The position numbers and the translations under genes are program-made. A stretch of DNA of 64,000 nt from Albimonas pacifica (GTDB taxonomy: Bacteria; Pseudomonadota; Alphaproteobacteria; Rhodobacterales; Rhodobacteraceae), in the NCBI RefSeq assembly GCF_900113695.1, contig NZ_FOQH01000001.1, forward strand, positions 558,001-622,000, given 5' to 3'. Shown piece by piece: positions 31,079 to 48,130 of this stretch. Numbering within the stretch: position 1 is the first letter of the stretch; each line of letters begins with the position of its first letter. The notes under the pieces are model-generated. The model worked only from the letters and a program-made list of their open reading frames with translations, had not been told where the DNA came from and did not search any database.

Positions 31079-31831
31079 TCAGACGGTCTGCGGCTCCTCC
31101 AGCGCGTCGGCGATGAACAGCGCCACCTGGTCCTCGCCCCCCAGCGCCTCGGCCGCGAAGGCGGACATCGAGCCGTAGCGCTGCGCGACGGTGTCGAGCG
31201 CGGTCTGCAGGTAGTCCGCCTCCACCCGGCGCAGCGCCTCGCGCGCGAGCTCGGGGACGGCGGAGACGGTGGAGTTCGCCGGCGGCGCCCACAGGTCGTT
31301 GGTGGCGAGGTAGTCGGCCATCACCGCCTCCTCCGCCGCGCCCAGCGTGCCCAGGATCATCGCGCCGGCGAAGCCGGTGCGGTCCTTGCCCGCGGCGCAG
31401 TGCCAGACGATCGGGCGCCCGCCGCTCTCGTGCGCGAGGCGCAGCAGGTCTTGGAAGACATGCGCGCTCTCCTCGACGTAGTAGCGGTAGGTCTCGCGCA
31501 TCGCCTCGCGCGCGCTCTCGCGGTCGAGCAGGCCCGCCTCGTGCAGCTCGCGCACGCGGTCGCCGGTCTTGGGCTCGATCGGCATCGCCACCCGGCGGTC
31601 CTTGATCGCGTCGGGCAGGACGTAGGCGTTCACGGTCGCCTCCTCGCGCCCGCGCAGGTCGACGATGGCGTAGGGGTCCAGCGCCTCCAGCGCCTCCATC
31701 CCCGCCGGGCCGAAGGTGCGCGGCGAGGCGCAGCGGTAGAAGCGCCGCTCGCGCACCCGCCGCCCGTCGGGCAGCGCCATCCCGCAGAAGGAGCGGAAGT
31801 TCGGGGCGTCAGGGTGCAGAAGCGTGGCCAT
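31079..31831 (-). CDS. Tyrosine-protein phosphatase (dual-specificity-like, CX5R)
   Basis: 250 aa from ATG 31831. Active-site loop IVWHCAAGKDRTGFAGA (nucleophile Cys near residue 145, Arg seven residues after HC) with the N-terminal marker NFRSFCGMALPDGRRVRERRFYRCASP and general-acid region IVDLRGREE. This is the Y_phosphatase3 type, close to Mycobacterium PtpB and LipA-like lipid phosphatases. May dephosphorylate proteins or phosphoinositides. It is divergent from the cyclase gene at 32115, so it shares its 283-bp control region with the signalling cluster. Confidence 0.9.
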   Translation of the reverse strand: MATLLHPDAPNFRSFCGMALPDGRRVRERRFYRCASPRTFGPAGMEALEALDPYAIVDLRGREEATVNAYVLPDAIKDRRVAMPIEPKTGDRVRELHEAGLLDRESAREAMRETYRYYVEESAHVFQDLLRLAHESGGRPIVWHCAAGKDRTGFAGAMILGTLGAAEEAVMADYLATNDLWAPPANSTVSAVPELAREALRRVEADYLQTALDTVAQRYGSMSAFAAEALGGEDQVALFIADALEEPQTV

Positions 31832-32114: not shown

Positions 32115-33308
32115 GTGAGCGCCGAAGCCGTGATCCTGTGCGCCGCGCCCTACGCCGCCGATCCGGCGTGGCTCGATCCCGCCTGCGAATCCGTTCTGCG
32201 CGCGGAGATCGAGGCGGCGCTGCCGGCCTCGGCCCGCGTCGCCTACGCCTCTCCCGCCGCCGGCCCCGGGCTGCTCTTCGCCGAGGCCGCGCTCGCCCGC
32301 GGAGCGGAGCTGCACCTCTTCCTGCCCTGCGCGCCCGAGGATTTCGCCCGTTGGCACGTGGCCCCCGCCGGCCCCGCCCACCTCGCCCGCTTCGAGGCGG
32401 TGCGCGCCGCGGCCGCGCGGGTGGAGACCTCCGGAGAGGAGCGCCTGGCGGGCGACGAGATCCAGCTGCGCTTCAACAACCAGGTGCTGCAGGGCCTCGC
32501 GCGGCTGCATGCCGACAGCCTCGGCGCCGCCGCGCGCCTGCTGGTGTGCTGGAGCCCGATGGCCCCGCCCGAGCCCGGCTCGCCCGCCGACTTCATGGAC
32601 CAGTGGCCCGAGATCGAGCGCCTGTCGCTGATCGACCTCGACGAGCCGCGGGGCGAGGGGGCGGCCCCCCTCTCGGACATCGCCCCGGGCCTCGGCGCGC
32701 TGTCCTTCGGGGCTAGCCCGCTGGTGGTGCGCGCGATCTTCTTCGCCGACCTCGCCACATACTCGACGCTGCGCGACGAGCAGGTGCCGCTGCTGTGGGA
32801 TTTCCTCGCCGAGGTGCAGGCCCGGATCGAGACGCGCGCGACCGCGCCGATCCTGATCAACACCTGGGGCGACGCGGTGCATGCGGCGGCCGAGACCGCC
32901 ACCGACCTCGCCGGCTACGCCGCCGAGCTGACCGCGGGGGTGGCGGAGCTCGAGCTCGACCGCTTCGGCCTCGAGGCGCGTCCGCGCTTCCGCGTGGCGC
33001 TCCATGCGGGGCCGGTCTACGTCGGCCTGCACCCGCTGACCGGGCGCTCGATGATCTTCGGGCACCACGTGAACCGGGCGGCGCGGATCGAGGGGGTGGC
33101 CGCGCCCGGCGAGATCTACGCCTCCCAGCATTTCGTGGCCCTGCTGCGCGCCGAATCCGACGCCCGCCAGCACGAGGCCCGGCTGACCGGCCAGCCCTGG
33201 GCGCCGGCCTTCGCGGTGACCTACCTGGGCGAGAAGGACCTGCCCAAGAACTTCGGGCGGGAGACGGTCTACCGCGTCGAGCCGCTGGACGGGAGGGCCT
33301 GCGCATGA
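32115..33308 (+). CDS. Class III adenylate/guanylate cyclase with Rossmann-like N-terminal domain
   Basis: 397 aa from GTG 32115 (GGGAGGAG upstream; upstream frame is low-complexity). Residues about 1-150 form an alpha/beta domain (VILCAAPYAADPAW, LFAEAALARGAELHLFLPCAPEDF) resembling the nucleotide-sensing Rossmann domain found before many proteobacterial cyclases. The C-terminal cyclase domain keeps both metal Asp residues (IFFADLATYS about 213, LINTWGDAVHA about 255) and the transition-state Asn/Arg (HHVNRAARIE about 318). Makes cAMP or cGMP. Overlaps the HATPase gene by 4 bases, so it is co-translated with an anti-sigma kinase. Confidence 0.85.
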   Translation: MSAEAVILCAAPYAADPAWLDPACESVLRAEIEAALPASARVAYASPAAGPGLLFAEAALARGAELHLFLPCAPEDFARWHVAPAGPAHLARFEAVRAAAARVETSGEERLAGDEIQLRFNNQVLQGLARLHADSLGAAARLLVCWSPMAPPEPGSPADFMDQWPEIERLSLIDLDEPRGEGAAPLSDIAPGLGALSFGASPLVVRAIFFADLATYSTLRDEQVPLLWDFLAEVQARIETRATAPILINTWGDAVHAAAETATDLAGYAAELTAGVAELELDRFGLEARPRFRVALHAGPVYVGLHPLTGRSMIFGHHVNRAARIEGVAAPGEIYASQHFVALLRAESDARQHEARLTGQPWAPAFAVTYLGEKDLPKNFGRETVYRVEPLDGRACA

Positions 33309-33721
33309 CCGCCCTCTCCCTGACGCTGGTCAACGATCTCGCCGAGGTCGGCCGCCTCGCCGAGGCGGTCGAGGCCTTCTGCGAGGCGAACGAGCTGCCG
33401 ATGGGCGCGGCCCACGCGCTGGCCCTGTCGCTGGACGAGCTTTTGACCAATACGATCAGCTACGGCTATGAGGACGGCGCGACGGGGCGGATCGAGGTCT
33501 CGATCACGCTCGCGGGCGGCGCGGCGACGGCGGTGGTGCGCGACGACGCCCGCCCCTTCGACCCGACCGGGGCGGCGGCGCCCGACCTCGACGCCGCGCT
33601 GGACGACCGCGCGGTGGGGGGCCTGGGCATCCACCTGGTGCAGTCGATGATGGACGAGGTCGGCTACGTCCGCCGCGACGGGGTCAACGAGGTGACCCTG
33701 GTCAAGCGGCTGGACGGCTGA
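33305..33721 (+). CDS. Anti-sigma-factor-type serine kinase (HATPase_c_2, RsbW/SpoIIAB-like)
   Basis: 138 aa. GHKL fold: N-box ALSLDELLTNTISYGYED with the Mg-binding Glu/Asn, G1 box VVRDDARPFDP (variant of DDGxPFDP) and G2 region GGLGIHLVQSMMDEVGY. In partner switching it phosphorylates a STAS antagonist and sequesters a sigma factor or another effector. ATGA overlap with the cyclase; the STAS gene follows after 24 bases. No sigma-factor gene is adjacent. Confidence 0.9.
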   Translation: MTALSLTLVNDLAEVGRLAEAVEAFCEANELPMGAAHALALSLDELLTNTISYGYEDGATGRIEVSITLAGGAATAVVRDDARPFDPTGAAAPDLDAALDDRAVGGLGIHLVQSMMDEVGYVRRDGVNEVTLVKRLDG

Positions 33722-33745
33722 CGAAGGCAAGAGGGGAGAGCGACC

Positions 33746-34084
33746 GTGGAGATCGAGACGGAGACGCAGGCCGGCGTGGTGGTGCTGCGCCCGAAGGGCC
33801 GGGTGGACAGCAACTCCGCGCGCGAGCTGGAGGAGGCGCTGCTGCCCCGCTTCGACGCCCCGGCGCCGGTGCTGGTGGACTTCTCGGCGCTCTCCTACAT
33901 CTCGTCGGCGGGCCTGCGGGTGCTGCTGCTCGCCGCCCGCCGCTCGAAGGCCACGGGCACGGCGCTGGGCCTGAGCGGGATGAGCGAGCCGGTGGCCGAG
34001 GTCTTCGCGATCAGCGGCTTCGCCAAGCTGTTCCGGATCTGGCCCGACGCCGAGGCGGCCCTCGCGGAACTCGCCGCCGGCTGA
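33746..34084 (+). CDS. STAS-domain anti-sigma factor antagonist (RsbV/SpoIIAA-like)
   Basis: 112 aa. Begins VEIETETQAGVVVLRPKGRVDSNSA and carries the phospho-acceptor loop LVDFSALSYISSAGLRVLLLA, where one of the two adjacent Ser is the expected phosphorylation site. ATP-binding partner is encoded immediately upstream; the matching phosphatase is likely the SpoIIE-type protein at 43734. Ribosome site AGAGGGGAGAG. It is the last gene of the plus-strand trio and converges on the alanine racemase. Confidence 0.92.
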   Translation: MEIETETQAGVVVLRPKGRVDSNSARELEEALLPRFDAPAPVLVDFSALSYISSAGLRVLLLAARRSKATGTALGLSGMSEPVAEVFAISGFAKLFRIWPDAEAALAELAAG

Positions 34085-34159
34085 CGCCGCCGCTCGCCCC
34101 GCGCGAGCCCCGCGCGGCGCCCGTGGTTTCGGCGCCGCCCTTGGCCCGGAGCCGGCCAA

Positions 34160-34226
34160 GCCCGCCCGCAGGGCGCCTCCGTCCCGGGGCGCGGGTCCCG
34201 GGTCCGGAGGCGCCCTGCGGGCGGGC
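34160..34226. repeat. Solo inverted pair of the intergenic-element end motif
   Basis: Arms 34160-34181 and 34205-34226 are a perfect 22-bp inverted repeat whose core (GCCCGCCCGCAGGGCGCC and its complement) is the GC-rich outer end of the large palindromic elements at 2.4, 45.9, 50.7 and 54.9 kb. The long central hairpin is absent. Lies between the convergent STAS and alr genes, so may act as a two-way terminator. Confidence 0.65.
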
Positions 34227-34286
34227 CTGGGCCCGAGGGCCGGCGGTCCGCCCGGAGGCCCGTCCGTGGGCCTCGCGGCGGGGGCG

Positions 34287-35645
34287 TCAGGCGCCGAGAT
34301 ATTCCTTGCGCACCGCCGCGCCGACCTGGGTGAGCAGCACGTTGGGGGCGCAGGCCATGGCCTCGGCCACCGGCTCCACCGGGGCGGCGGCGTCGAGCAG
34401 GACCGCGCGGGCGCCGGGGCGGGCCGCGGCCTCGGGCAGGTCGGTGACGTCGAGCATCGTGAGGTTCATCGCCACCCCGCCCACCACCGCAACCCTGCGC
34501 CCCTGCACATGGGGCCGCCCCGCCTCGGCGTAGACCTGGGGCAGGCCGTCGGCGTAGCCCGCCGCGATCGTGGCGATCCGCGAGGGGCGCGAGAGCTCTC
34601 CGGCCCCGCGATAGCCCAGCCGCCGGCCGGCGGGATGCGCGGCGACCGCGATCACCGGCGCCTCGAGCGAATAGCAGGGCCTGAGCCCGGGCTGGCGGAC
34701 CACCGAGGTCTGGGTTCCGAACAGCGCGCTGCCCACCCGCGCCAGGCCCTGGCGCCACTCCGGCCCCAGGAACAGGCCGGAGGAGGCCGAGAGGCTCAGG
34801 ACCGCGCGCGGCAGCCCGCAGGCCAGCCGCTCCAGCAGCGCGAGCTGGGCGGCGTTGCCGGGATCGTCGGGCAGGTTGTAGGCGGCCAGATGCGAGACCA
34901 GCGCCGCCAGCTCCAGCCCCGCCAGCCGCTCGGGCTCGGCGGCGAGCCGCGCCGCCTCCGCCTCCGACAGGCCCAGCCGGCCGAGCCCGGTGTCGAGCTG
35001 CAGCGCCGCCCGCATCGGCCGGCCGGCGGCCGCGGCCCAGCGCGCGCAGGCCTCGACCTCGGCGAGCGACACCAGCGCGGGGATCGCGCCGAGGGCGGCG
35101 AAGGCCGCGGGCGTCGCGTCGGCGAGCCCCATCAGGCAGAACGCCTGCGCGCCCGGCGCCACGGCCAGCAGGCGCTGGGCCTCGTCGAGGTCGTTGACCC
35201 AGAACGCGGCGCAGCCCGCCTCGGCCAGCGCCCGGGCGACGGGCGCGAGGCCTAGGCCGTAGGCGTCGGCCTTCAGCACCGCCGACAGCCGCCCCGGCGC
35301 GCCCAGCCGGCAGGCCTGCGCCCAGTTCGCCCGGATCGCGTCGAGGTCCACCCGCAGCACCGGCGCCGTCGCCGCGCGGGACGCCGCCATGGCGGGCGCG
35401 CGGCCGTCCCGCCCGCTCCCCGCGGCTCCCGGCGGCCCCGACGCCCCGGCCGCCGTCCGGTCGTCCGTCGCGGCCCCGCGCGCAGGCGCGGGCTCGGGCG
35501 CCCGGACGACGGTCGGCTCGGTCTCCGCCCCGCCGCCCGTGCGGCGCGGCGCCGGCGCGTCGGCGGGTGCGGCCGGTCCGCGCCCGCCCGTGGGCGGGAC
35601 CGCAGCGGGGGCGCCCGCGGGCGCGGAGGGGCGGGGCGCGGTCAT
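34287..35645 (-). CDS. alr: Alanine racemase
   Basis: PLP enzyme interconverting L- and D-alanine. Core of 367 aa from MAASRAATAPVLRVDLDAIRANW; Lys-PLP in SAVLKADAYGLG, LDTGLGRLGL, and the second-base Tyr region in AAGYADGLPQVY. From ATG 35645 the protein is 452 aa, with an 85-residue Pro/Ala/Gly extension. That start overlaps the upstream stop as ATGA, which supports it, while ATG 35390 gives a normal family length. Last gene of the minus-strand operon containing the sensor-MFS protein, so it may be a specialised racemase rather than the cell-wall enzyme. Confidence 0.85.
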   Translation of the reverse strand: MTAPRPSAPAGAPAAVPPTGGRGPAAPADAPAPRRTGGGAETEPTVVRAPEPAPARGAATDDRTAAGASGPPGAAGSGRDGRAPAMAASRAATAPVLRVDLDAIRANWAQACRLGAPGRLSAVLKADAYGLGLAPVARALAEAGCAAFWVNDLDEAQRLLAVAPGAQAFCLMGLADATPAAFAALGAIPALVSLAEVEACARWAAAAGRPMRAALQLDTGLGRLGLSEAEAARLAAEPERLAGLELAALVSHLAAYNLPDDPGNAAQLALLERLACGLPRAVLSLSASSGLFLGPEWRQGLARVGSALFGTQTSVVRQPGLRPCYSLEAPVIAVAAHPAGRRLGYRGAGELSRPSRIATIAAGYADGLPQVYAEAGRPHVQGRRVAVVGGVAMNLTMLDVTDLPEAAARPGARAVLLDAAAPVEPVAEAMACAPNVLLTQVGAAVRKEYLGA

Positions 35646-36382
35646 GGGCGGGCGTACCAGAGGTCCCGGCCCCCGTCCGCGCGCCGTCGCCAGCGCAGGC
35701 CGAGCCGCCCCTCGGCGAGGGCGGCGTGCTGGGCGGGCGCGTCCTCGGCGGCGAGCCAGAGGCCGGCGGCGGGGTCGGGCGGCGGCGTCTCGGCCGCCTC
35801 GACCGCCGGCAGGGCCGAGCGGCGCCACATGAAATAGCGCAGGTGGCCGCCGTATTTCTCGTGCAGGGCGCGCACCGCGAAGCCGCCGGCCATCAGGTTG
35901 GTCCAGCTCCGCGGATTGCCCGGCGCGGCGGTGGCGTAGAGATGCGCGATCTCCAGCCGCCGGGCCTCGGCCACGCGCCAGTCGATGAACAGGTCGTGCA
36001 GCCCCGCCCCCCATTCCGCCGGCAGCACCCCGGCGCCGGCGAGCTTGGCGAGGCCCTCGCCCGCGGGAATGCCCAGCCAGGGCCGCGCGTCCTCGGACGG
36101 GGGCAGATGCACCTGCAGGACGCCGTAGCCGATCAGCGCCTCGCCGCGGAAGGCGCCCAGCAGGCGGCCCTCGCCGGCCAGCAGCCGCTCGAAGAAGCCG
36201 CGGTCCTCGGGCTTGACCAGCCGGGGGTCGCCCACCGCGGCCATGGCGGCGAGATGCACGGCGTAGACCCGCTCGAGATCTCCCGGCGCCAGCACCGCGA
36301 GGCGCACCTCCCCCGGGGGCGCGGCCGAAGGCCCGCCCGCGGCGGGGTCGCCGGACCTGGTGTCGTCGCCGGGCGCGGTCAT
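35642..36382 (-). CDS. GNAT-like acetyltransferase-fold protein
   Basis: 246 aa from ATG 36382 (GGGGGAGAC before it). The N-terminal half has a GNAT-type pattern: VRLAVLAPGDLERVYAVHLAAM, then LLGAFRGEALIGYGVLQV for strands 2-4 and LEIAHLYATAAPGNPRSWTNLMAGGFAVRAL for the acetyl-CoA helix and C-terminal strand. The consensus Q/RxxGxG/A loop is not clear, so binding of acetyl-CoA is uncertain. Overlaps alr by 4 bases and lies 83 bases after the binding-protein gene. Substrate unknown. Confidence 0.65.
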   Translation of the reverse strand: MTAPGDDTRSGDPAAGGPSAAPPGEVRLAVLAPGDLERVYAVHLAAMAAVGDPRLVKPEDRGFFERLLAGEGRLLGAFRGEALIGYGVLQVHLPPSEDARPWLGIPAGEGLAKLAGAGVLPAEWGAGLHDLFIDWRVAEARRLEIAHLYATAAPGNPRSWTNLMAGGFAVRALHEKYGGHLRYFMWRRSALPAVEAAETPPPDPAAGLWLAAEDAPAQHAALAEGRLGLRWRRRADGGRDLWYARP

Positions 36383-36465
36383 CGCGCGGTCTCCCCCAAT
36401 GCGCGGCCCCCGCCCCGTGGCGCGGCCGCTCCCCAATGCCCCGCACCGCCGGCGCCGCCGGCCCC

Positions 36466-37518
36466 TCAGCCGGTCAGCACCTCGGCGTAGTTCAACATCT
36501 CGATCGGCGGGTAGAGGTCGAGCTTCTCCGCCACCGGCAGGTTGATGATCAGCGAGAAGCGCTTGAGCGTCTCGATCGGGATCGATCCCGGATCCTCGCC
36601 GTCGCGCAGCACCCGCGCCGCCTTCGAGGCCGCGAGCTGGCCGACCGAGTAGTAGCGCGAGATCAGCCCCACCAGCGCCCCGCCGCTGCGGATCGCGAGC
36701 TCCGCCGCCCCGAAGGTCGGCAGCCGCTGCTCCAGCGCCGCCGGGACCACCCGGTCGTACTGCGTGCCGAGGAAGGTGTCGGGCAGCAGGTAGAGCCAGT
36801 TGGCGCCCGCCGACTTGATCTCGGCGATCAGCTCCTCGATCCCGTCGGCGGTGGGGCGGGCGTCGCCGTCGATGCGGAACTGCCGCTCGACCAGCGCGAA
36901 GCCCATGCTCTCGCGCAGGGTGCGCAGCTCGTCGACGATGGCGACCGAGTTCTCCTCGGAGGCGGTGTAGAGCACGCCTAGGCTCTCGATCGGGCGGTAG
37001 GAGTGCATGGCGCGGAGCTGCGTCTCGGGCGGCACGATGTGCACGGCGCCGGTGACGTTGCGCGCCGGCGTCTCGACGTCGGCCACAAGGCCCGATTTCT
37101 CGGGCGCGGAGACGAGGGCGAAGACCACCGGGATGTCGTGGATATGGGCGGCGGGGTCGGGGTCGTCGTGGCGCCCGGCGATGCCGAGCGTCACCGACGT
37201 GCCCCAGGTGACCACCAGGTCAGGCTTCTCGGCGCGGATCTCCTCGACGAAGCCGGGCAGCTTGCCGGGGTCGCGGTCGGCGTCGCGCTCGATGAACTCG
37301 GCCGCGATGCCGTTGGCGGCGAGGTAGTCGTCGAAGCCGTCCTCGACCTCGGTGCGGCCGCGGTAGGTGACGCGGTAGATGCGGAACGGCCGGGCCTGGG
37401 GCAGGGCGGGGCCCGCGGCGCCGGCGGCGATCAGCCCCGCCGCGCCGCCCAGAAAGGCCCGCCGGCCGAGCGGCGGCGCGCGGCCGGCGGCCGGGGCGGT
37501 GGTCCTGCGGTCCTGCAT
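36466..37518 (-). CDS. Orphan ABC-type substrate-binding protein (ABC_sub_bind/TrpX family)
   Basis: 350 aa. Export signal with twin-arginine-like RRAFLGGAAGLIAAGAA ending near residue 40. Mature part fits the ABC_sub_bind family of two-lobed periplasmic binding proteins: FRIYRVTYRGRTEVEDGF, PDLVVTWGTSVTLGI, IPVVFALVSAPEKSGLV, NVTGAVHIVPPETQL, LGVLYTASEENSV and LINLPVAEKLDLYPP. No permease or ATPase gene accompanies it. Instead it is 3 bases from the sensor-MFS gene, which suggests it presents a ligand to that membrane protein (inferred). Confidence 0.85.
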   Translation of the reverse strand: MQDRRTTAPAAGRAPPLGRRAFLGGAAGLIAAGAAGPALPQARPFRIYRVTYRGRTEVEDGFDDYLAANGIAAEFIERDADRDPGKLPGFVEEIRAEKPDLVVTWGTSVTLGIAGRHDDPDPAAHIHDIPVVFALVSAPEKSGLVADVETPARNVTGAVHIVPPETQLRAMHSYRPIESLGVLYTASEENSVAIVDELRTLRESMGFALVERQFRIDGDARPTADGIEELIAEIKSAGANWLYLLPDTFLGTQYDRVVPAALEQRLPTFGAAELAIRSGGALVGLISRYYSVGQLAASKAARVLRDGEDPGSIPIETLKRFSLIINLPVAEKLDLYPPIEMLNYAEVLTG

Positions 37519-37521
37519 CGC

Positions 37522-39534
37522 TCAGCCCTCCACGCCTTCGACGTCCAGGTCGGCCGGGCGCAGCGCGGCTGCGGCGAGCCCGAAGACGACGGCGCAGGTC
37601 ATCACCGCGCCGCCCACGATCATCGCCGCATCGGCGAAGCCGTAAAGCCCCAGCAGCGCCCCCGCGACCGGGGGCCCCAGGGCGTTGCCGGTGCGCTCCA
37701 CCAGCCGGAAGATGCCGTAGACCGAGGCCTCGGTCACCTCTGCGGCATGGCGGCGCCCGTAGTCCCCCACCAGCCCCGAGAGCGCGGCGATCGACAGCGC
37801 CTGGCCCAGCCCCAGGCCCAGCAGCATCAGCGCGATGCGCGCCGGATCGTCCGCGCCTCCGGCCGAGAGGGCGAAGGCCGAGGCGCCGGCGAGCAGCCCG
37901 CCGACCGCCACGAAGCCCGCCCGCGCCCGCCAGCGGTCGGCGAGCCGGGCGCAGGCCGGGACCAGCAGCACCATCACGATGGGGTAGATCATCAGCATCC
38001 GCCCGGTGGCGGCCTGGGTGGCGCCCAGCGCCTCCATCTGCAGGGGGACGAGGAAGAAGCAGAAGGCGACCAGGATGATCTTGGCCGGCATCGCGCACAG
38101 GAAGAACAGCGCGGCGAGCGAGGGCGAGGCGATCACCCGCCCGAATTCCCGCCAGCGGATCGCGGGGCCGGCGGCGCGCACCGGGCCCGCGTCGGGCATC
38201 ACCAGCCAGGCGAGCAGCAGCGACAGCCCGGCGAAGAGCCCGGCGACGAGGAACGTGCCCTCGACCCCCACCCGGTCGGTGAGGATGCCGCCGATGGGCG
38301 GGCCGCAGACCCCCGCCACCAGAATCGCCGAGATGAACACGGCCATGCCGGAGGAGCGCTGCGCGGGCTCGGTCGAATCGATCACGTAGCCCTGGGCGCC
38401 CACGAAGACCATCGCGAAGCCGAAGCCGGTCAGCGCGCGCAGGGCCGCGAAGGGCACGAGCCCGTCGGCGAAGGCCGAGGCCGCGTAGCCCACCAGCCCG
38501 ATCGCCCCGCCGAGGGCCAGCGCCCGGCGCCGGCCCAGCCGCTCGGTCACCCCGCCCAGCAGGGGCTGGCAGGCGGCGACCACGGCGAGGAAGGCCATCA
38601 TCGGCAGGGCCGCGACGAAGGCGGGGTCGAGGCCCGCCAGCGCGCCCTCGCCCTGGGCCGCCTGCGCCAGCGCGCGGACATGGCCGGGCAGGAACGGGCG
38701 GGTCAGCTCCTCGGCCAGCATGAAGACGAAGAGGGGCGCGCGCACCGCCATCACCCGGCCGGCGCCCGCGGTTCCCAGCATCTGGCCCAGGCCGAAGCGG
38801 TCCTGCAGCATCTCCAGCGCCTGGCGTGCGGCGCGGTCGCCGCTCTCCATCGCGCGGTCGCGGATCTGGGCGTAGGCGGCGTGGACCTTCTCGATCCGGC
38901 CGTCGAGGGCGCGGGCCAGCGCCCCGAACTCGCCCCGCGCCTCCACCGGCTGGTGGCTGCGCAGGTCCCCGCGCTGGATGTTGTGCAGCCGCCGCTCGAC
39001 GCCTTCGATGGCGGCGTAGAGCCCGTCGCCGAGGCCCACGTAGATCAGCTCCAGCGCCACCACCGCGGTGACGAACATGACGATGGCGAGGTCGATCCAC
39101 AGGTTCGCCACCACGTCGCGGGCGAAGGCGGGATCGAGCCCGACCGAGATCGCGAGCGGCGGCGCGCCCTCCGCCCGCGGCACGGCGCGCGAGACGACGC
39201 CCGAGGTCTGCGTGCGCTCCCCGTCCGGGGCGTAGACGATCTGGATCGGCGCGCCGTCGGGACCCTCGAGCGCGATCCAGGCGACGTCGTCGTTCTCGGC
39301 CACCAGCCGCGCGAAATGCGCGTCGAGCCCGTGCAGCCGGTCGGGCGGGATGCCGAGCGCCAGCGCCTTGCCGATCAGGGCGGCGGAACTGTCGGCGAGC
39401 GTGGCGGCCTTGCGCTCGATCTCGGGGCCCAGCACGGCGTCGGCGCGGCGGACCGTCTCGAAGGAGATCGACAGCAGCGCCGCCAGCAGCGCGGCGAGCA
39501 GGGCGGCGGAGAGGCGGACGCGGAGGCTTCTCAT
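37522..39534 (-). CDS. Chimeric membrane protein: periplasmic sensor, HAMP-like linker and MFS transporter
   Basis: 670 aa. Helix 1 (about 8-25), periplasmic sensor about 26-165 containing VAWIALEGPDGAPIQIVY and PPLAISVGLD, helix 2 (WIDLAIVMFVTAVVALELIYV), a HAMP-like amphipathic linker with IQRGDLRSHQPVEARGEFGAL, then a full 12-helix MFS module from about 275: MFS motif-A-like GGVTERLGRRRALALG, FGFAMVFVGAQGYV and GLVGDYGRRHAAEVTEASVYGI. The start of a receptor is thus fused to a transporter. Function inferred as a sensing transporter or transporter-derived receptor. Tight operon with the sensor upstream (10 bases) and the binding protein downstream. Confidence 0.85.
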   Translation of the reverse strand: MRSLRVRLSAALLAALLAALLSISFETVRRADAVLGPEIERKAATLADSSAALIGKALALGIPPDRLHGLDAHFARLVAENDDVAWIALEGPDGAPIQIVYAPDGERTQTSGVVSRAVPRAEGAPPLAISVGLDPAFARDVVANLWIDLAIVMFVTAVVALELIYVGLGDGLYAAIEGVERRLHNIQRGDLRSHQPVEARGEFGALARALDGRIEKVHAAYAQIRDRAMESGDRAARQALEMLQDRFGLGQMLGTAGAGRVMAVRAPLFVFMLAEELTRPFLPGHVRALAQAAQGEGALAGLDPAFVAALPMMAFLAVVAACQPLLGGVTERLGRRRALALGGAIGLVGYAASAFADGLVPFAALRALTGFGFAMVFVGAQGYVIDSTEPAQRSSGMAVFISAILVAGVCGPPIGGILTDRVGVEGTFLVAGLFAGLSLLLAWLVMPDAGPVRAAGPAIRWREFGRVIASPSLAALFFLCAMPAKIILVAFCFFLVPLQMEALGATQAATGRMLMIYPIVMVLLVPACARLADRWRARAGFVAVGGLLAGASAFALSAGGADDPARIALMLLGLGLGQALSIAALSGLVGDYGRRHAAEVTEASVYGIFRLVERTGNALGPPVAGALLGLYGFADAAMIVGGAVMTCAVVFGLAAAALRPADLDVEGVEG

Positions 39535-39544
39535 CGGGGCGTCC

Positions 39545-40186
39545 TCACCGGCGGGCCGAGGGCCGGAAGCCGGCCATCTCGTTCTCGGCCTGGGCGATCA
39601 TGTCGGCGTGCTCGGCGGCCGAGGCGCGCCGGGCGCGGGCGCGCAGGCGGCTGAGCAGGGCCAGCGCCAGCAGGCAGCCGGCCGCGACCGCGGCGAGGCC
39701 GGCGGGAACCGCGCCCAGCAGCACGTCGCGGCGCAGGCCCGCGACGGTCGCGTCCATCGTGGCGCCGTCGAGGCGCACCAGAACCTCGCCGACCGGGGCG
39801 CCGAGCGCGCCGATCACGGGCTCGGACTGGCGGAAGGCGGGGTCCTCGCCGGCGGGGGTCTCCAGCGCGCCGATCCGGGCGGGAGCGGAGGAGAACAGGA
39901 TGCGCCCCTCGGGGCCGGCGACGTCGATGGTCAGGATCAGCGGGTCGGTGGCGGCCTGGCGGGCGAGGAGCTCGCCCAGCGTGCGCTGCTCGGCGAGGCG
40001 GATGCCGAAGCCCTGGGCGGCGGAGGCGTCGGCGGCGATGTCGCCGGCGATCATCGCGGCGCGGGAGCGGACGAGGTCGAGGTAGGCGGTGCGCACGCCG
40101 GAGAAGTTGAGATAGGCCGCGAGCGCCATGGCGAAGCCGATGATGGCGGCGAAGACGGGAAGGGTGCGGGCTGCGAGCCGAATCAT
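39545..40186 (-). CDS. Two-helix periplasmic sensor protein without output domain
   Basis: 213 aa from ATG 40186. Helix 1 RTLPVFAAIIGFAMALAAYL, a periplasmic domain of about 130 aa with Cache-like pattern (IAGDIAADASAAQG, LGELLARQAATDPLILTIDVAGPEGRIL in pieces, PVIGALGAPVGEVLVRL), helix 2 GLAAVAAGCLLALALL, and a short basic cytoplasmic tail. There is no kinase, cyclase or methyl-accepting domain. It probably signals through the sensor-MFS protein encoded next in the operon. A similar stand-alone sensor is encoded on the other strand at 40850. Confidence 0.75.
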   Translation of the reverse strand: MIRLAARTLPVFAAIIGFAMALAAYLNFSGVRTAYLDLVRSRAAMIAGDIAADASAAQGFGIRLAEQRTLGELLARQAATDPLILTIDVAGPEGRILFSSAPARIGALETPAGEDPAFRQSEPVIGALGAPVGEVLVRLDGATMDATVAGLRRDVLLGAVPAGLAAVAAGCLLALALLSRLRARARRASAAEHADMIAQAENEMAGFRPSARR

Positions 40187-40849
40187 CCGTGAACCGCCGG
40201 GAGGTCGGAGTTGCGAAAGGCGCCTGAAGGGCTTGTGAAAACTACCACGCCCCAATCGCAGCGCACAGGCCCGCCCGCCGCGGCTCCGGGACGCCTGCGC
40301 CTCTTCCGACGCCCCGCGGCGCCGCCGGCCGACGCGGGCGCCGCGTCGACGGCGTCCCCGGCCGCGCCGTCCCGCCCGCGGCGCGGCCCGGCGCGGCGCC
40401 CGGCCGCCGCCGCCGCCCGGGGCCGGCCGGGCGGGGACGCCCCGCGCTGGGCGACGGCGGCCGGAGGCGCGATGCGGGCGTGACCGCCCGCGCGCCGCGG
40501 CCGGCGTGGCGCGGGCGGGAGCCGAGCGCCCGCGGCGCGGCTGCGGGCGCGTCGCCGCTCCGGGCCTCCGGCCGGGCGCCCCGGCGCCGCGGCCCGCGCT
40601 CCGCCCGCCGTCCGGCGCCGGGCGCGTCGCCTGTCGCGCGCTTCGCCCCGGGCGGCGCTCGCCCCCCGCGCCGTCGCCGGGGCGCGCCGCGGGCGAGGCG
40701 CCGGCCCCGGGCGCGCGGGTCGACGCGGCGCCTGCGCCGGCGCCGCCCGCGCGGCATTGGCGGGTGACAGGCCCCGGGCCGCGGGCTAGCGTGGCCCGGT
40801 TCCCGCCCGCCCCGCCCTGCGTCCCCCGCCGCCCGAGACCCTCCCGCCG
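40187..40849. promoter_or_regulatory. 663-bp divergent intergenic region of the signalling operons
   Basis: Separates the two mirrored operons starting at 40186 (minus) and 40850 (plus). It is extremely GC-rich and rich in Pro/Arg/Ala-coding low complexity in every frame; ORFs found there have no domain and look like chance. The only less GC-rich patch, about 40230-40260 (TTGTGAAAACTACCACG), probably holds the minus-strand promoter. No palindromic operator stood out. Confidence 0.4.
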
Positions 40850-41632
40850 ATGGCCCCCAGTTCGCGGATCCTCCTGGCCCTCGCGGGCGTCACGGCCGCG
40901 TCGCTCGCCCTCGTCGCCGCGCTGGTCTTCGGCGGGCTGGACCGGCTCGGCCTGCGCTCGGCCGAGGCGAACATGGACTTCCTGCTCTCCCAGCTGCGCG
41001 GCTCCATCGAGGCCAACGTCGGCCTCGGCCTGGCGCTGCCCGACGTCCGCGTGGCCCAGGCGCTGGTCGAGCAGGCCAAGGCCGCCGACGACCGGGTGCT
41101 GGCGGTCGAGGTGTTCTCGCCCGCCGGCGTCTCGCTGTTCAACACCGACCGCGGCGCCGTCGGCGAGGAGATCCCCGAAGCCTGGCGGCGCGCGCTCGCC
41201 TACCGTTCCGTCGGCGACCGCTGGCGGGTGGAGGAACTGGGCGCCATCGTCGTCGGCGAGGCGATGCGCAACGACTTCGACGAGCCGGTGGGCTACGTCG
41301 CCGTCACCATCTCGGACGCCGCCCGCGCGAGCCATGCCGACGGGCTCGCCGCGGTGCTGGCCGCCCGCGCCGCCTGGCTCGCGCCGCTGGCGCTGGTCCT
41401 GGCGCTGGGGGTGGCGGGATGGGTGCTCGACCGCTCCACCCGCGACCTCAGGCGCCTGGCCGCCGAGCTTTCGGCCGCGCCGCCCGCCGGGGCGGCCCCC
41501 TCGCCCGCCCCCGCCCCCGCCCCCGCCCCCGCCGCGACCACGCCCGGCGCCCGCGTGCGCGCCGCCGCCGACCGAGCCGTCGCCGAGCACGAGCGGGCGG
41601 CGGCCGACGTCCTCGCCGCGGACGAGGCATGA
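40850..41632 (+). CDS. Two-helix periplasmic sensor protein (counterpart of the 39545-40186 gene)
   Basis: 260 aa. Helix 1 ILLALAGVTAASLALVAALVF, a periplasmic Cache-like domain of about 140 aa with MDFLLSQLRGSIEANVGLGLALPDV, VLAVEVFSPAGVSLFNT and EPVGYVAVTIS, helix 2 WLAPLALVLALGVAGWVL, then a cytoplasmic tail with a Pro/Ala repeat (APAPAPAPAPAAT) and a helical end. No output domain. The stop overlaps a small ORF (ATGA), and the operon continues to the MFS-like and SpoIIE genes. Confidence 0.75.
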   Translation: MAPSSRILLALAGVTAASLALVAALVFGGLDRLGLRSAEANMDFLLSQLRGSIEANVGLGLALPDVRVAQALVEQAKAADDRVLAVEVFSPAGVSLFNTDRGAVGEEIPEAWRRALAYRSVGDRWRVEELGAIVVGEAMRNDFDEPVGYVAVTISDAARASHADGLAAVLAARAAWLAPLALVLALGVAGWVLDRSTRDLRRLAAELSAAPPAGAAPSPAPAPAPAPAATTPGARVRAAADRAVAEHERAAADVLAADEA

Positions 41633-41772
41633 GCGCCCAGATGCCCCGCGCGCGCCCCGCCCCGCGCCGGCCCGCCCCGCGCCGGCCTGCCCTGCGCGGG
41701 CGGCGCCCGTGCAGTCCCTCCCTCGGCCGGGCCGCTTCGCGCCGGCCCTCTCCGCGCCGGGCCGCCCTGTGA
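41629..41772 (+). CDS. Small Arg/Pro-rich ORF linking two signalling genes
   Basis: 47 codons, MSAQMPRARPAPRRPAP at the start, strongly basic and repetitive (PRRPAPRRPALRGRRP). ATG overlaps the sensor stop (ATGA) and its TGA overlaps the GTG of the next gene (GTGA). No domain. It may be real, may only carry ribosomes across the gap, or may be chance in GC-rich DNA, where Arg/Pro codons abound. Confidence 0.3.
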   Translation: MSAQMPRARPAPRRPAPRRPALRGRRPCSPSLGRAASRRPSPRRAAL

Positions 41773-43730
41773 GCGCCCCCGCGCTCCTCTCGGGCCGCGA
41801 GGCCCGCGCCCGGGTCTGGACGCCCGCGCTGCTGGTGGCGCTGGCGCTGACCCTCGCGGTGGGGCTGGCGGGCCAGCTGATGCTGCGCGCAGGGCTCGGC
41901 TACAGCGTGCCGGCGCTGGCTGAGTCGACCCGCGCCGGCGCCGCGGCGGTGGGCCATGCCGTCGCCGGGCAGTTCGCCCGCGCCCGGGCCCTGGGCATCC
42001 CGCTCGAGCGCCTGCCCGACGCCGAGGCCTATCTCGCGCGCATCGCCGCCGAGGCGCCGCAGGTGCGCGCCCTCGCCCTGATCGACGCGCAGGGCCGCAC
42101 CCTCGCCGCCACCGCGCCCGACATCGAGGGCGAGGCGATCCCGATCCGGGGCGCCGAGCCGCCCGCGACGCTGGTGGTGGCCGCCGCCTCGCCGCTCTTC
42201 GACGACGCCATGCTGCGGCTGCGCGTGGCGCTGTGGCTGGCGGCGCTGCTGGCCGGCGCGGCGGGGGGCGCGATCACCGCGGGCTTCCTCGGCCTCGCCC
42301 AGGAGCCCGCCCGCCGCCGCCTGCGCCGCGCCGTCGAGCGCGCCGCCGAGGGCGATTTCGCCGAGACCCCGCCCCCCGGCGCCCGCGGCCGCTTCGCCGC
42401 CGCGGCCGAGGCGCTCGCACGCCAGGTCGAGCGGGTGCAGGCCGCCCGCACCGCGCTGCTGGAGGCCGCGGCCACGATCCGCGCCATCGACTTCGACGGC
42501 AGCCTCGGCCGGCGCATCGACCCGGTGCTGGCCCGCGTGCAGGCCCGCTGGACCCTGCCGGAGCGCGAGGACGACGACCTCGGCGATCTCGTCCGCCCGC
42601 CCGCCGCGGGCGCCGCCTCCGCCGCGCCGGCGCCTGCGGGCGCGGCGGGCGCGGACGCGGCGGCCTGGCGGCTGGCGGCGGCGCTGGCGATCTGGGCGGG
42701 CGCGGCGCCGCTGGTCGCGAACTTCGCCGTCGACCGGGGGGCGTTGTGGGCAACGCCGGCCTGGCAGCCGGTGGTTCCGCTGCTGGTGGAGCTCGCGGCG
42801 CTGGCGCTGGGCGCGCTGGTCGGGCGCGGCGCCCCGGGGCGGTCGGCGACGCTGCGGGCGCTGGCCCTGGCGCTGGCGGGGGCCTGCCTCGCCGCGACCT
42901 ACTGGTGCCGGACGTGGGAGCTGTTCGTCGCCCTGCGGCTCGGCGCAGGCCTCGGCGCGGGCTTCGCCGGGGCGGCGCTGGCGGGCGCTTTCGCGCCCGC
43001 CGCCTCGCCCCGCGCGCTGCGCGCGCTGCTGGTCTTCGCGGCCCTCGTCGCCGGACCGCTGATCGGCGGGCTGGCGGGCGAGGCCGTCGGCCGCCGCGCC
43101 GCCTTCCTCGCGCTGGGGGTGCTGGCGCTGCTGGCCGCGCCGCTGCTTGCCGCGGCCGGCCCCGGGGCGCGGGCGGGGCCGCGCGCCGGGACCCGGGCGG
43201 GCGCCGCGCCGTCCGCGGCCGCCCGGGCGGCGGCGCGGGGGCTCTCGGCCGCGCCGGCGCTGCTCGCGGCCTGCGCCGCCGCGCCGGCGGCGGCCGCGGA
43301 GCTGACCTGGCTGCCGCTGGGGCCCGGCTACGACGATTATCTCGCGGGCGGCGGGCTCGCGGCGGGCCTGGGCCTCGCCGCGCTGCTCGCGCCCCGGATG
43401 CCGCCGGCGGGCGTGGCGCTGGCCCTGGGCCTCGCCGCCGCCGCGCGCTTCGCGGCCGAGGACTGGGGCCCGGCGCTCGGCGGTCCGCCGCCCGCCCTCG
43501 CGCCGCTGCCGGCCTGCCTGCTGCTGGGGCTGGCGCTGGGCGCCGCGGCGCCGGCGCGGGGCGGGCGTGGCGCGCTGCTGGCGCTGGCCGGCGGCGCGGC
43601 GGCCGGCCTGCTCGCCGAGGGCCTCGCCCGCCAGCTCTCCGCCCCGCCGGGGGCGGCGACGGCCGCCTTCGCCGCCGCCGCGCTCGTCGCAGCCCTGGCG
43701 ATGCGCCCGGCCGACCGCGGGAGGGGCTGA
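41769..43730 (+). CDS. Sensor fused to a degenerate MFS-like membrane module
   Basis: 653 aa from GTG 41769. Helix 1 ALLVALALTLAVGLAGQLML, periplasmic sensor to about 150 (ALIDAQGRTLAATAPDIEG, ATLVVAAASPLFDDAML), helix 2, HAMP-like linker with VERAAEGDFAETPPPGARGRF, then from about 295 a run of 10-12 very Ala/Leu-rich helices. The first half still shows an MFS-like layout (LFVALRLGAGLGAGFAGAAL, GPLIGGLAGEAVGRRAAFLALG) but conserved motif A and charged residues are mostly gone. Looks like a paralogue of the 37522-39534 chimera that lost transport and kept a membrane sensory role (inferred). Confidence 0.7.
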   Translation: MSAPALLSGREARARVWTPALLVALALTLAVGLAGQLMLRAGLGYSVPALAESTRAGAAAVGHAVAGQFARARALGIPLERLPDAEAYLARIAAEAPQVRALALIDAQGRTLAATAPDIEGEAIPIRGAEPPATLVVAAASPLFDDAMLRLRVALWLAALLAGAAGGAITAGFLGLAQEPARRRLRRAVERAAEGDFAETPPPGARGRFAAAAEALARQVERVQAARTALLEAAATIRAIDFDGSLGRRIDPVLARVQARWTLPEREDDDLGDLVRPPAAGAASAAPAPAGAAGADAAAWRLAAALAIWAGAAPLVANFAVDRGALWATPAWQPVVPLLVELAALALGALVGRGAPGRSATLRALALALAGACLAATYWCRTWELFVALRLGAGLGAGFAGAALAGAFAPAASPRALRALLVFAALVAGPLIGGLAGEAVGRRAAFLALGVLALLAAPLLAAAGPGARAGPRAGTRAGAAPSAAARAAARGLSAAPALLAACAAAPAAAAELTWLPLGPGYDDYLAGGGLAAGLGLAALLAPRMPPAGVALALGLAAAARFAAEDWGPALGGPPPALAPLPACLLLGLALGAAAPARGGRGALLALAGGAAAGLLAEGLARQLSAPPGAATAAFAAAALVAALAMRPADRGRG

Positions 43731-43733
43731 GCC

Positions 43734-45866
43734 ATGCTCCTCTCCACCCGCATCGCCATCATCGTCTCCCTCGCCTTCGTCTTCGCCTTCGGCTCGCTCC
43801 TCGCCATCGGCCTGCAGCGCGAGGCGCTGGCGGTGCGCCCCCACACCGACGTCGCCATCGCCGGCGAGGCCGCGCTGTGGCGCAAGATCGTCGAGCTCGA
43901 GACCCTGCGCCTCGCCGAGCTGCGCGAGGAGATCGCCGCCGAGCCCGCGGTGGTCGAGGCCGCCGGGGCCGGCGACCTCTCCCGCCTGCGCAGGCTGGGG
44001 GCGGTGCTGCTCCAGTCCCGGCTGATGGCCGAGGAGGTCTCGGACGTGCAGCTCCTCGACGCGCAGGGGCGGGTGATCTACGCCTCCGCCGCCTCGGCCG
44101 AGCCGCCGCCGCTGCTCGACGTGGCGACGGTTGGCGCGGTGCTCGACGGGCCCTCCATCGGCGGCGTGCGGCAGGTGGCGCCGGGGGCGTTCCGGGTGGT
44201 CTCTGCGGCGCGCTTCGGGGCCTGGGCGGGGGCGCCCACGGTGATCGCGGTGGGGGTGAACGCCGCCCGCCCGCTGGAGGCCTTCGCCGAGGCGATGCAG
44301 TCGGAGGCCTATCTGCTCTCCACCCGCGGCCGGCTGGTCGAGGGCACCGCGCCGCGCCTGTGGCGCGAGCTGGCGATCGAGCTGCCCCAGCGGGTGGGCG
44401 TGGTGCGCCAGGCGCCGCTGGACGAGCGGCTGTTCTCGGTGACCGCGATCCCCATCGCCGACATCTCCGCGGGCTCGGCGGGGCTGCTGGTGGCGGTGCA
44501 GGACGCGACGCCCAGCCTGAAGGCGCTGCAGCGGCTGACCGCGGCGACCATGGCGGTGATGATCGCGGTGGCGCTGGCGACGGTGGGGGGGCTGTGGCTC
44601 TACCTTCGGGTCAGCTTCGCGCCCCTGCAGCGCGCGGTCGGCACCCTCGGCGCGCTGGCCCGCGGGGACATGTCCGCCCGCCTGCCGCCCGGGGGCGACG
44701 ACGAGATCGGGCAGATCGCCTCCGCCGTCGCCCGCCTGCGCCGCAGCCTGCGCGCGCTCGACGACGCGCGCCGCCAGCGCGAGCTGCAGCGCCGCCGGCA
44801 GGAGCGCTTCGTGCGCCGCCAGATGGAGGCCCTGGCCGAGACGCTGGAGCCCGGCGCGCGCGAGGAGGTGCTGGCCGACCTCCGCCGCATCGTCGCGGCC
44901 ACCCGCGGCGCGGGCGAGGCCGGCTCCGACGCCCCCGCGCCGGCCGCCGCCGAGGCGCCCGCGGCCGAGGCCGCCCCCGGCGACACCGTCGCCCGCCTGA
45001 TCCGCGAGGACGACCAGCTCGGCCCCATCGCCGCCGTGCTCCAGCAGATGTCGGGCCGGGTGGTCGACCAGCACCGGCGCCTGTCCGAGCTCGTCGCCCG
45101 CCTGCGCGAGGCGCTGGTGCGCGAGACGCGGCTCGCCTCCCTCCAGCAGGAGCTCGCCATCGCGCGGGAGCTTCAGCACTCGGTGCTGCCCGCGGACATG
45201 GCGGACCGGCCGGGCTATGCGGTGAAGGGGGTGATGGAGTCGGCCCAGGAGGTCGGCGGCGACTTCTACGACTTCTTCGAGCGGCCCGACGGGCGGCTGG
45301 TGTTCGTGATCGCCGACGTCTCGGGCAAGGGGGTGCCGGCGGCGTTCTTCATGGCGATCTCGCGCACGCTGCTGAAGGCCATCGCCCTGTTCGAGCCGGA
45401 TCCCGCGCAATGCATCCGCCAGCTCAACGACCTGCTGGCGGTGGACAACGACCGGATGATGTTCGTGACCCTGCTGTTCGGCATCTTCGACCCCGCCGCC
45501 GGCCGGGCCGAGATCGTCAACGCCGGCCACCTGCCCCCCGTCCGCCTCGGCCGCGAGGGCGCGGCGCTGGTGCCCTCGACCGGGGACATGGCGGTGGCGG
45601 TGGCCGAGGGGCTGGAGTTCACCACCCTGGCGATCGACCTCGAGCCGGGGGAGAGCCTCGTGCTCTACACCGACGGCGTCACCGAAGCCTTCGACGCGGC
45701 GGGCGACCAGTTCGGCGAGCAGCGGATGGTCGACCGCCTCGCCCCCCTCGGCGGCGCCGGGCCGGAGACGGTGGCGGCGGCGATGCTGGAGACGGTGAAG
45801 GCCTTCGAGCAGGGGGTGGAGCAGTCGGACGACATCACCCTGCTGATCGTGCGGCGGGCGGGCTAG
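43734..45866 (+). CDS. Membrane sensor with HAMP and SpoIIE/PP2C-type serine phosphatase domain
   Basis: 710 aa. Helix 1 (about 7-26), large periplasmic sensor to about 265, helix 2 (LTAATMAVMIAVALATVGGLWLYL), HAMP with LARGDMSARLPPGGDDEIGQI, a helical coiled region, a Pro/Ala linker, then the phosphatase: LQHSVLPADM, EVGGDFYDFFERPDGRLVF (GGDFYD near 507), DVSGKGVPAAFFMA, VNAGHLPPV, LYTDGVTEAFD and SDDITLLIV. All metal Asp residues are present. In RsbU/SpoIIE systems it dephosphorylates the STAS antagonist and so frees the anti-sigma partner. Three bases separate it from the MFS-like gene. Confidence 0.93.
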   Translation: MLLSTRIAIIVSLAFVFAFGSLLAIGLQREALAVRPHTDVAIAGEAALWRKIVELETLRLAELREEIAAEPAVVEAAGAGDLSRLRRLGAVLLQSRLMAEEVSDVQLLDAQGRVIYASAASAEPPPLLDVATVGAVLDGPSIGGVRQVAPGAFRVVSAARFGAWAGAPTVIAVGVNAARPLEAFAEAMQSEAYLLSTRGRLVEGTAPRLWRELAIELPQRVGVVRQAPLDERLFSVTAIPIADISAGSAGLLVAVQDATPSLKALQRLTAATMAVMIAVALATVGGLWLYLRVSFAPLQRAVGTLGALARGDMSARLPPGGDDEIGQIASAVARLRRSLRALDDARRQRELQRRRQERFVRRQMEALAETLEPGAREEVLADLRRIVAATRGAGEAGSDAPAPAAAEAPAAEAAPGDTVARLIREDDQLGPIAAVLQQMSGRVVDQHRRLSELVARLREALVRETRLASLQQELAIARELQHSVLPADMADRPGYAVKGVMESAQEVGGDFYDFFERPDGRLVFVIADVSGKGVPAAFFMAISRTLLKAIALFEPDPAQCIRQLNDLLAVDNDRMMFVTLLFGIFDPAAGRAEIVNAGHLPPVRLGREGAALVPSTGDMAVAVAEGLEFTTLAIDLEPGESLVLYTDGVTEAFDAAGDQFGEQRMVDRLAPLGGAGPETVAAAMLETVKAFEQGVEQSDDITLLIVRRAG

Positions 45867-47084: not shown

Positions 47085-47207
47085 CGTGGGGCCTTTCGCG
47101 ATGGGGGCGCCGACCGGCGCAGGGCCGGAGAGGAGCGGGCGTCGGCAGAGGCCCCGGGTCGAGCCCGGGGCGCCCCGTGGGGCGGGCGTCGCGCCCTTGC
47201 GGCGGGG

Positions 47208-48059: not shown

Positions 48060-48130
48060 GGGGGGCTCCTCCGGGCGCGCGTCGGCGCGGGCCGCCGGAG
48101 CGGCCCGCGCGATTGGCTCTGGAAAGGGCC

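Follow-up and report, generated by a model that had tools for sequence, protein, structure and literature searches.

A Predicted Partner Switch with Transporter-Derived Receptors and a Class III Nucleotide Cyclase in Albimonas pacifica

Organization of the Locus

Within a 64,000-nucleotide stretch of the Albimonas pacifica genome (contig NZ_FOQH01000001.1, positions 558,001 to 622,000; hereafter the window), an 11-gene block at positions 32115-45866 probably encodes a membrane-receptor-driven partner switch, most likely controlling a class III nucleotide cyclase. The host genome (G000) comprises 6.02 Mb in 68 contigs and is 99.58% complete. As delimited from the open reading frame (ORF) list and Pfam matches, the block falls into three transcription groups: cyc, hatp and stas on the plus strand; sen1, mfs1, sbp, a gene for a 246-residue protein and alr on the minus strand; and sen2, mfs2 and spoIIE, divergent from sen1, again on the plus strand. 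An initial annotation made from the letters alone had given the same gene list and layout, which Pfam bears out except for two labels, a GNAT-like enzyme and a decayed MFS protein, that are taken up below. The features are as follows, in window coordinates.

32115-45866, three transcription groups (plus, minus, plus): the block of 11 genes
32115..33308, plus strand: cyc, predicted class III nucleotide cyclase (PF00211), the N-terminal domain of which (residues 1 to about 200) is unassigned
33305..33721, plus strand: hatp, RsbW-type protein-serine kinase (PF13581, HATPase_c_2, 92.3 bits)
33746..34084, plus strand: stas, stand-alone STAS antagonist (PF01740, 70.1 bits; TIGR00377, 77.5 bits, above cut-off)
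34287..35390, minus strand: alr, alanine racemase (PF01168/PF00842)
35642..36382, minus strand: conserved 246-residue protein of no recognised family (PF00583 at E 0.1, below cut-off)
36466..37518, minus strand: sbp, orphan periplasmic-type binding protein (PF04392, 99.5 bits)
37522..39534, minus strand: mfs1, membrane helix, sensor, helix, HAMP-like region and MFS domain (MFS_1, 134.1 bits)
39545..40186, minus strand: sen1, stand-alone two-helix membrane sensor (two hydrophobic segments; no family above cut-off)
40187..40849, no strand: divergent intergenic region between sen1 and sen2, that is, between the two receptor operons
40850..41632, plus strand: sen2, stand-alone two-helix membrane sensor (two hydrophobic segments; no Pfam match)
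41769..43730, plus strand: mfs2, sensor, HAMP-like region and diverged MFS domain (no Pfam match; start, about 41769, placed from alignment A4)
43734..45866, plus strand: spoIIE, membrane sensor with HAMP and PP2C-type (SpoIIE) phosphatase domains (PF07228, 164 bits)

The Predicted Kinase, Antagonist and Phosphatase

The kinase is assigned to the RsbW/SpoIIAB type by its PF13581 match, which lies above the cut-off; the RsbW and SpoIIAB equivalog models match below theirs. The LDELxxN, DD-FDP and GGLG stretches are kept in the alignment. The STAS protein contains a candidate phosphosite, Ser54, within the motif SSAGLR, which is kept in 14 of 14 aligned STAS rows (12 distinct genes, two of them present on two loci each); with its TIGR00377 match, this motif marks the protein as a STAS antagonist with a phosphorylatable serine, for which phosphorylation is predicted. 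SpoIIE has a HAMP domain at residues 295-341 (33.6 bits, above cut-off) and a PF07228 domain at residues 518-708, and its Asp motifs GGDFYD, ADVSGKG, YTDG and SDDI are all intact, as befits a PP2C/SpoIIE phosphatase.

Across the host genome, hatp is the sole strong PF13581 match (91.8 bits; the next, at 40.2 bits, lies in an 834-residue frame), and SpoIIE gives one strong match, at 168.5 bits, and another at 30.5 bits. STAS has one match in a short frame, namely stas, and two others in frames of 683 and 584 residues. Because the genome thus holds one RsbW-type kinase, one stand-alone STAS protein and one strong SpoIIE match, the three switch proteins encoded in the block appear to have no evident competitors in their host.

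Some relatives of these proteins show irregularities (loci and genomes are designated by L and G numbers). The kinase gene of Jiella pelagia (L007 837-1367) has an apparent frame break, with pieces in two frames, which may be a sequencing error or real. The SpoIIE relative of G541 (L114 4973-7552) retains GGDFYD, the other Asp motifs being absent from the alignment, and could be a pseudo-phosphatase or carry a frame break near its end. Apparent N-terminal fusions to the kinase on L054 and L068 were rejected by eye, as their upstream parts carry no domain and resemble read-through of a non-coding frame.

The Cyclase

The PF00211 match of cyc covers residues 207-348 and scores 32.0 bits against a cut-off of 21.9; this match and the two metal aspartates, Asp212 and Asp253, place it in class III. 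Motif comparison identifies Asp212, Asp253, Asn320 and Arg324, which we take to have catalytic roles. Asn249 and His317 occupy what are presumably the positions that determine purine choice elsewhere in class III, where relatives have Asn, Glu or Lys and His, Ser or Thr, respectively. The product of the predicted cyclase may accordingly be cAMP, cGMP or another. Relatives of cyc are found on L017 (Albimonas sp. CAU 1670), L018 (J. pelagia), L049 (G395), L112 (G537), L055 and L064 (G216). Pfam gave no GGDEF match among the 11 proteins of the block. On L055 and L064, a TPR-S domain (PF20308) is encoded further upstream of the cyclase.

The Receptor Proteins

Sen1, sen2, mfs1, mfs2 and spoIIE all start alike, with two hydrophobic segments separated by a polar stretch. 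The stand-alone sensors are only marginally similar to each other (E 7e-4 across 48 residues); sen1 has a weak sCache_3_2 match (E 0.076), and sen2 is kept on L006 (Albimonas sp. CAU 1670), L007, L049, L112, L063 and L065. The start of sbp, judged by eye, is twin-arginine-like.

Mfs1, for which a 13-sequence alignment (A5) was built, has 14 hydrophobic segments and a full MFS_1 domain. Its HAMP match is sub-threshold (16.3 bits against a cut-off of 25) and is placed directly after the second predicted membrane helix, a position that favours the HAMP assignment made in the initial annotation. In the alignment, mfs1 retains stretches that resemble the motifs of working antiporters.

Mfs2 is assigned to the MFS through profile comparison with mfs1 only (hhalign; 99.1% probability, E 4.6e-19, 398 columns). 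Plain BLASTP between the two was not significant (E 1.4), and tblastn connected mfs2 with the first sensor-MFS gene of Albimonas at E 2.8e-10. Among the three mfs2 relatives scanned (L063, L065 and L049), that of L065 alone matches MFS_1 (34.2 bits against a cut-off of 33.4). The gene had been described as a decayed MFS; its frame is open and it is conserved in Albimonas sp. CAU 1670, Jiella and G395, so this label was rejected, and by these comparisons mfs2 is a diverged relative of mfs1. We favour the view that the MFS domain would sense rather than transport.

Conservation of the Block and of the Receptor Module

With the block proteins and seven flanking proteins as tblastn queries, all 11 genes were found colinear in Albimonas sp. 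CAU 1670 (72-95% identity) and in J. pelagia, a member of another order, the Hyphomicrobiales (48-79% identity). The complete block recurs in mirrored form in the alphaproteobacterium G395, and a partial block is present in G537. Among the 11 loci returned for spoIIE, that of Albimonas sp. CAU 1670, whose genus lies in the Rhodobacterales, is the closest (86% identity). Because the whole block is conserved, a chance arrangement is excluded and the block, on this comparison, is one unit. In Albimonas the flanks match on both sides: on the left Y_phosphatase3 with the gene next to it, on the right the enoyl-CoA hydratase-like genes with the gene next to them. None of the seven flanking proteins matches in J. 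pelagia, whose available sequence extends 1.5 kb to the left of the block and about 10 kb to the right. In 149 genomes from the host order, cyc has matches in three, two of them of low score. Since the block is present in another order yet missing from most near relatives, horizontal transfer is suggested.

In the window itself the flanking genes, for Y_phosphatase3 at 31079-31750 and for the enoyl-CoA hydratase-like proteins at 46248-49169, are ordinary. A role as a defence system was considered and dropped: PADLOC gave no defence-system match for the 10 proteins submitted, which were nine of the block's 11 (all save alr and mfs2) and the L055 cyclase.

The receptor genes extend beyond the block. 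At 1e-40, the sbp profile (A6) identified 26 places in 25 of the 385 genomes of the class, and a profile scan of the surrounding DNA found a sensor gene at 24, a sensor-HAMP-MFS gene at 19 and SpoIIE at 11; one further place, L111, has an MFS match that lacks the sensor part. Not counted as SpoIIE were G409 and G312, in which the sensor part only matches, and two weak matches on L111. Some of these loci had contributed to the profiles themselves, which inflates scores and leaves adjacency unaffected, and several loci are cut short at contig ends. Eight of the 11 SpoIIE-bearing places have the kinase nearby (that of G200 on L124) and seven the STAS gene. SpoIIE as such, present in 74 of the 385 genomes, was not taken as module membership; the surroundings of 20 SpoIIE places were examined, and among them L058-L062 and L066-L068 have no receptor genes except for one MFS match at 27 bits.

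G307 (L051) has these genes in a single co-directional run of hatp, stas, sen, mfs1, sbp, sen, an mfs2-like gene and spoIIE, in which the second MFS gene scores only 86 bits. A survey of the phylum found matches in 6 of 299 genomes, four of them outside the class, including G722 (L116), with a kinase, sensor, SpoIIE, MFS, binding protein and STAS gene. The conserved neighbourhoods, the run in G307 and the lack of another strong partner in the host genome all favour the earlier proposal that receptors, SpoIIE, kinase and STAS protein belong to one pathway. In L104-L108 (G199, G222, G338, G509 and G432; genomes of 1.9-2.3 Mb), a binding protein accompanies a sensor protein of about 355 residues; the fetched DNA of these loci gave no mfs1 match.

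The Cyclase as Output of the Switch

In the window, hatp and cyc overlap by 4 nt. The two functions share one open frame in G395 (618 residues) and G537 (584 residues), which represent different genera of one family; these fusions, on L049 and L112, were accepted, since there the cyclase continues in frame into the kinase. A different rearrangement is seen in G409 and G312, where the protein in the SpoIIE slot joins a sensor-HAMP front to a PF00211 end and the mirrored receptor layout is kept (the G409 protein was scanned with Pfam; the PF00211 domain of G312 was identified in the genome search). The fetched DNA surrounding the swapped protein gave no match to kinase, STAS or cyc.

Cyclase and SpoIIE are also associated across loci and genomes. 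A class III cyclase is found on 4 of the 11 SpoIIE-bearing loci (the window, G395, G261 and G424), with 0.33 expected from PF00211 density (P about 4e-4); an extra SpoIIE-cyc pair on L064 (G216) stands outside this count, its binding protein being on another contig. A cyclase-family profile gave 24 matches in 24 of the 385 genomes, 8 at 434 bits or above and 16 below 340 bits, and SpoIIE (1e-30) occurs in 8 of 8 genomes of the upper set versus 3 of 16 of the lower-scoring set and 74 of 385 overall. After removal of the four profile-building genomes, it is present in all four held-out ones (P 0.0013 if these are independent). Three of these, G204, G325 and G496, whose genomes measure 0.8-1.0 Mb, have spoIIE, hatp and stas in a run. 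The fourth, G165, has the order hatp-stas-spoIIE, accompanied by relatives of sbp (weak, 42 bits) and of mfs1 (311 bits), its cyc lying on another contig. Around 14 of the 16 lower-scoring cyclases, kinase, STAS and SpoIIE all gave no match above 28 bits. From the cyc-hatp overlap, the kinase fusion, the slot swap, the co-location on loci and the co-occurrence of the subfamily with SpoIIE, the cyclase is the best-supported output of the switch.

A number of observations weigh against this reading. SpoIIE is missing from the fetched DNA of 15 of the 26 sbp places, two of which, G409 and G312, have the cyclase swap, and no cyclase is seen in the sequence fetched for 7 of the 11 SpoIIE-bearing loci, three of them (G271, G435 and G414) limited by contig ends. 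The G395 cyclase domain falls just below the Pfam cut-off (20.9 against 21.9 bits) and has Ser in place of what we take to be the transition-state Asn of class III cyclases, and the G424 cyclase is of a different, CHASE2-type kind. In cyc itself, Asn249 and His317 are unusual at the presumed purine-specificity positions. The held-out genomes are not fully independent, as G204 and G325 belong to one family and G165 to the family of G395, and the 434-bit threshold was picked after the gap in scores had been seen. The structure models of cyc (pLDDT 39.0; 2 sequences, one partial) and mfs2 (pLDDT 50.4; 3 sequences) were treated as uninformative; in the latter, only part of the periplasmic sensor (about residues 61-150) comes near or above 80, and a fold search with the model gave no match at E 0.001. 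Finally, G307 has the full receptor and switch and no PF00211 match anywhere in its genome. Because of G307 and the cyclase-less SpoIIE loci, the cyclase is not the sole or universal target, and the switch must have others there.

The same observations bear on the possibility, which we regard as rather doubtful, that the switch is real and acts on a distant target, a sigma factor or another protein, the cyclase being carried along in the operon or giving a signal of its own from it. G307 and the seven cyclase-less loci would fit such a target, as would RbaVWY of Rhodobacter capsulatus, which, in the portion of its description available, functions with no identified sigma target (PMC3999984). 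Against it stand the fusion of cyclase and kinase in two genera, the SpoIIE-cyclase swap, the subfamily co-occurrence and the 4-nt overlap. Nor did Pfam match a sigma factor in any of the 40 ORFs scanned, a subset of those in the window, in agreement with the initial annotation; a cognate sigma factor of the kind found in the RsbU/V/W-SigB system, if there is one, may be distant. The neighbourhood search proposed with that annotation found block and module conserved in related genomes, and the switch proteins were not found paired with another phosphatase and a sigma factor, although a distant sigma target may exist.

In the mechanism that we propose for control of the cyclase, a small molecule would bind the periplasmic binding protein and/or the MFS domains and change the state of both sensor/sensor-HAMP-MFS pairs, which would act together with the membrane SpoIIE phosphatase. 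SpoIIE would then remove phosphate from the STAS protein, probably at Ser54, and the freed STAS protein would bind the RsbW-type kinase. This binding would alter the activity of the cyclase, itself bound to the kinase or, in two genera, fused with it. The anatomy of the system is well supported by the sequence comparisons and the mechanism is predicted: physical contacts, phosphorylation site, sign of control, ligand and product are the parts that we infer. The cyclase had originally been proposed as a second, parallel output; the kinase fusion and the output swap point instead to an effector regulated by the switch. With the natural cyclase-kinase fusion and the slot in which phosphatase and cyclase interchange, the idea that a partner switch governs a class III cyclase becomes open to direct test.

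A Possible Receptor Kit with Several Outputs

The distribution of the receptor genes suggests a transporter-derived kit (sensor, sensor-HAMP-MFS protein and loose binding protein) whose outputs can be exchanged: in the window a partner switch acting on a class III cyclase, a cyclase fused behind the sensor in G409 and G312, and type VI secretion (T6SS) in Vibrio sp. THAF190c, G678, G626, G760 and G421, the T6SS link being one of adjacency. In such a kit, the MFS domain would occupy the position that is usually taken by a kinase or cyclase in HAMP proteins, and the copy in the window would be the first example, in the literature searched, of a partner switch setting a class III cyclase; we hold this wider proposal to be evenly poised. 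In the open-licence literature, searched with a limited set of terms (including the accessible portions of PMC8256260 and PMC11418112), neither the receptor kit nor a cyclase-RsbW fusion nor control of a class III cyclase by a partner switch was found described, which is weak evidence that they are undescribed. From the HAMP-MFS arrangement one may ask whether a transporter domain can serve a HAMP relay as its output, or as its sensor.

That the locus instead serves transport and metabolism seems improbable. The MFS proteins and binding protein would then move a substrate, the HAMP region would gate transport, alr and the 246-residue protein would process the substrate, and the signalling genes would regulate transport locally. 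The full MFS_1 match of mfs1 (134.1 bits) and its presumed antiporter stretches are consistent with this, as is the recurrence of metabolic genes near the module: alr itself, genes for a PanB-like protein (PF02548) on L054, L056 and L113, and an ATP-grasp gene on L114. The companion metabolic gene varies, however, whereas the sensors recur; mfs2 is conserved despite having lost most of its MFS similarity; Pfam finds no ABC permease in the block; and G409 and G312 place a cyclase behind the sensor-HAMP part. The PanB-like protein is encoded between binding protein and SpoIIE (L054 5677-6663, L056 6949-7917 and L113 10848-11825).

The alr gene is kept on L006, L007 and L049 and also lies beside the receptor module on L098 (G514). 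The 246-residue protein has relatives on L049, L050, L057, L063, L065, L069, L098, L112, L114 and L116. Its description as GNAT-like was dropped, the PF00583 match (E = 0.1) being below cut-off, and the suggestion that this protein and alr are operon outputs found no support. In G514, alr and the relative of the 246-residue protein accompany receptor genes and no SpoIIE, and adjoin cobW and cobN.

Association with Type VI Secretion Genes

Of 29 genomes or records searched for TssC, 14 have it anywhere, and in 6 (G421, G189, G678, G626, G760 and a Vibrio sp. THAF190c plasmid) it is separated from the module by no more than about 25 kb. Other T6SS genes lie beside receptor genes as well: Hcp on L101 (G189), VgrG and DUF6931 on L115, and a ClpV-like ATPase on L117. 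G421 (L056) has sen, mfs1, sbp, the PanB-like gene and spoIIE, followed in a row by ClpV-like, Hcp, VgrG, DUF6931, TssB and TssC genes. The adjacency to these clusters makes the module a candidate receptor for a signal that triggers the machines. It is very unlikely that the module is primarily a T6SS regulator whose window copy controls the host T6SS, directly or via a nucleotide messenger, since, although the row in G421, the six nearby TssC genes and the presence of TssC in the host genome (contig C31) are in keeping with this, TssC is without a match in 15 of the 29, which shows that the module does not require a T6SS, and the host T6SS and the block are on different contigs.

The module lies near T6SS genes on L056 (3102-19377), L115 (6545-19611), L071 (8649-20613), L117 and L118, of which L071 and L118 were found via the TssC search only. 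On L101 (11072-13942), the module is followed in the T6SS region by a 957-residue protein with no Pfam match at 0.001. Host TssC is at C31:332872, with a weaker match at C31:343734; the region C31:332872-358300 contains, within about 26 kb, both TssC matches and a weak SpoIIE-like match in a 249-residue frame, which may be a T6SS phosphatase.

Comparison with Known Partner Switches

Partner switches mostly control sigma factors, and a few act on diguanylate cyclases. RsbU, RsbV and RsbW of Bacillus subtilis belong, as phosphatase, antagonist and kinase, to the same broad protein families as their counterparts in the block. By analogy, the closest known systems appear to be SiaABCD and HsbRAD, both partner switches on diguanylate cyclases; to our knowledge, SiaABCD has no MFS receptors or binding protein. 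The RsbU/V/W-SigB system differs from the window in having its sigma target in the B. subtilis operon, according to the accessible part of PMC3999984, with none matched among the 40 window ORFs scanned. RbaV, RbaW and RbaY of R. capsulatus belong to the same order as the host and are canonical STAS, HATPase and PP2C proteins; as far as the available portion of the source goes, two-hybrid tests gave no sigma partner, RbaY has a receiver domain rather than a membrane sensor, and no MFS or binding protein is described (PMC3999984).

In HsbR/HsbA/HsbD (with FlgM) of Pseudomonas aeruginosa, as in the proposed mechanism, a STAS protein connects a PP2C/kinase switch to a messenger cyclase. The accessible text describes HsbR as a response regulator with phosphatase and kinase domains and HsbD as a c-di-GMP-producing enzyme bound by phosphorylated HsbA, and mentions no transporter-derived receptors (PMC6482189). 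SiaABCD of P. aeruginosa likewise uses a PP2C-type phosphatase, a kinase and a STAS-like protein to control a nucleotide-messenger enzyme, unphosphorylated SiaC binding and activating SiaD in the parts of the reports available (PMC8457831, PMC7647112). The two systems differ in their proteins: spoIIE scores 57 bits with the SiaA equivalog model, far below its cut-off of 700; the window kinase matches PF13581 and, weakly, the RsbW models; and its STAS protein matches TIGR00377. They differ also in the target, which is a diguanylate cyclase with a GGDEF domain in SiaD and a predicted class III cyclase (PF00211) in the window.

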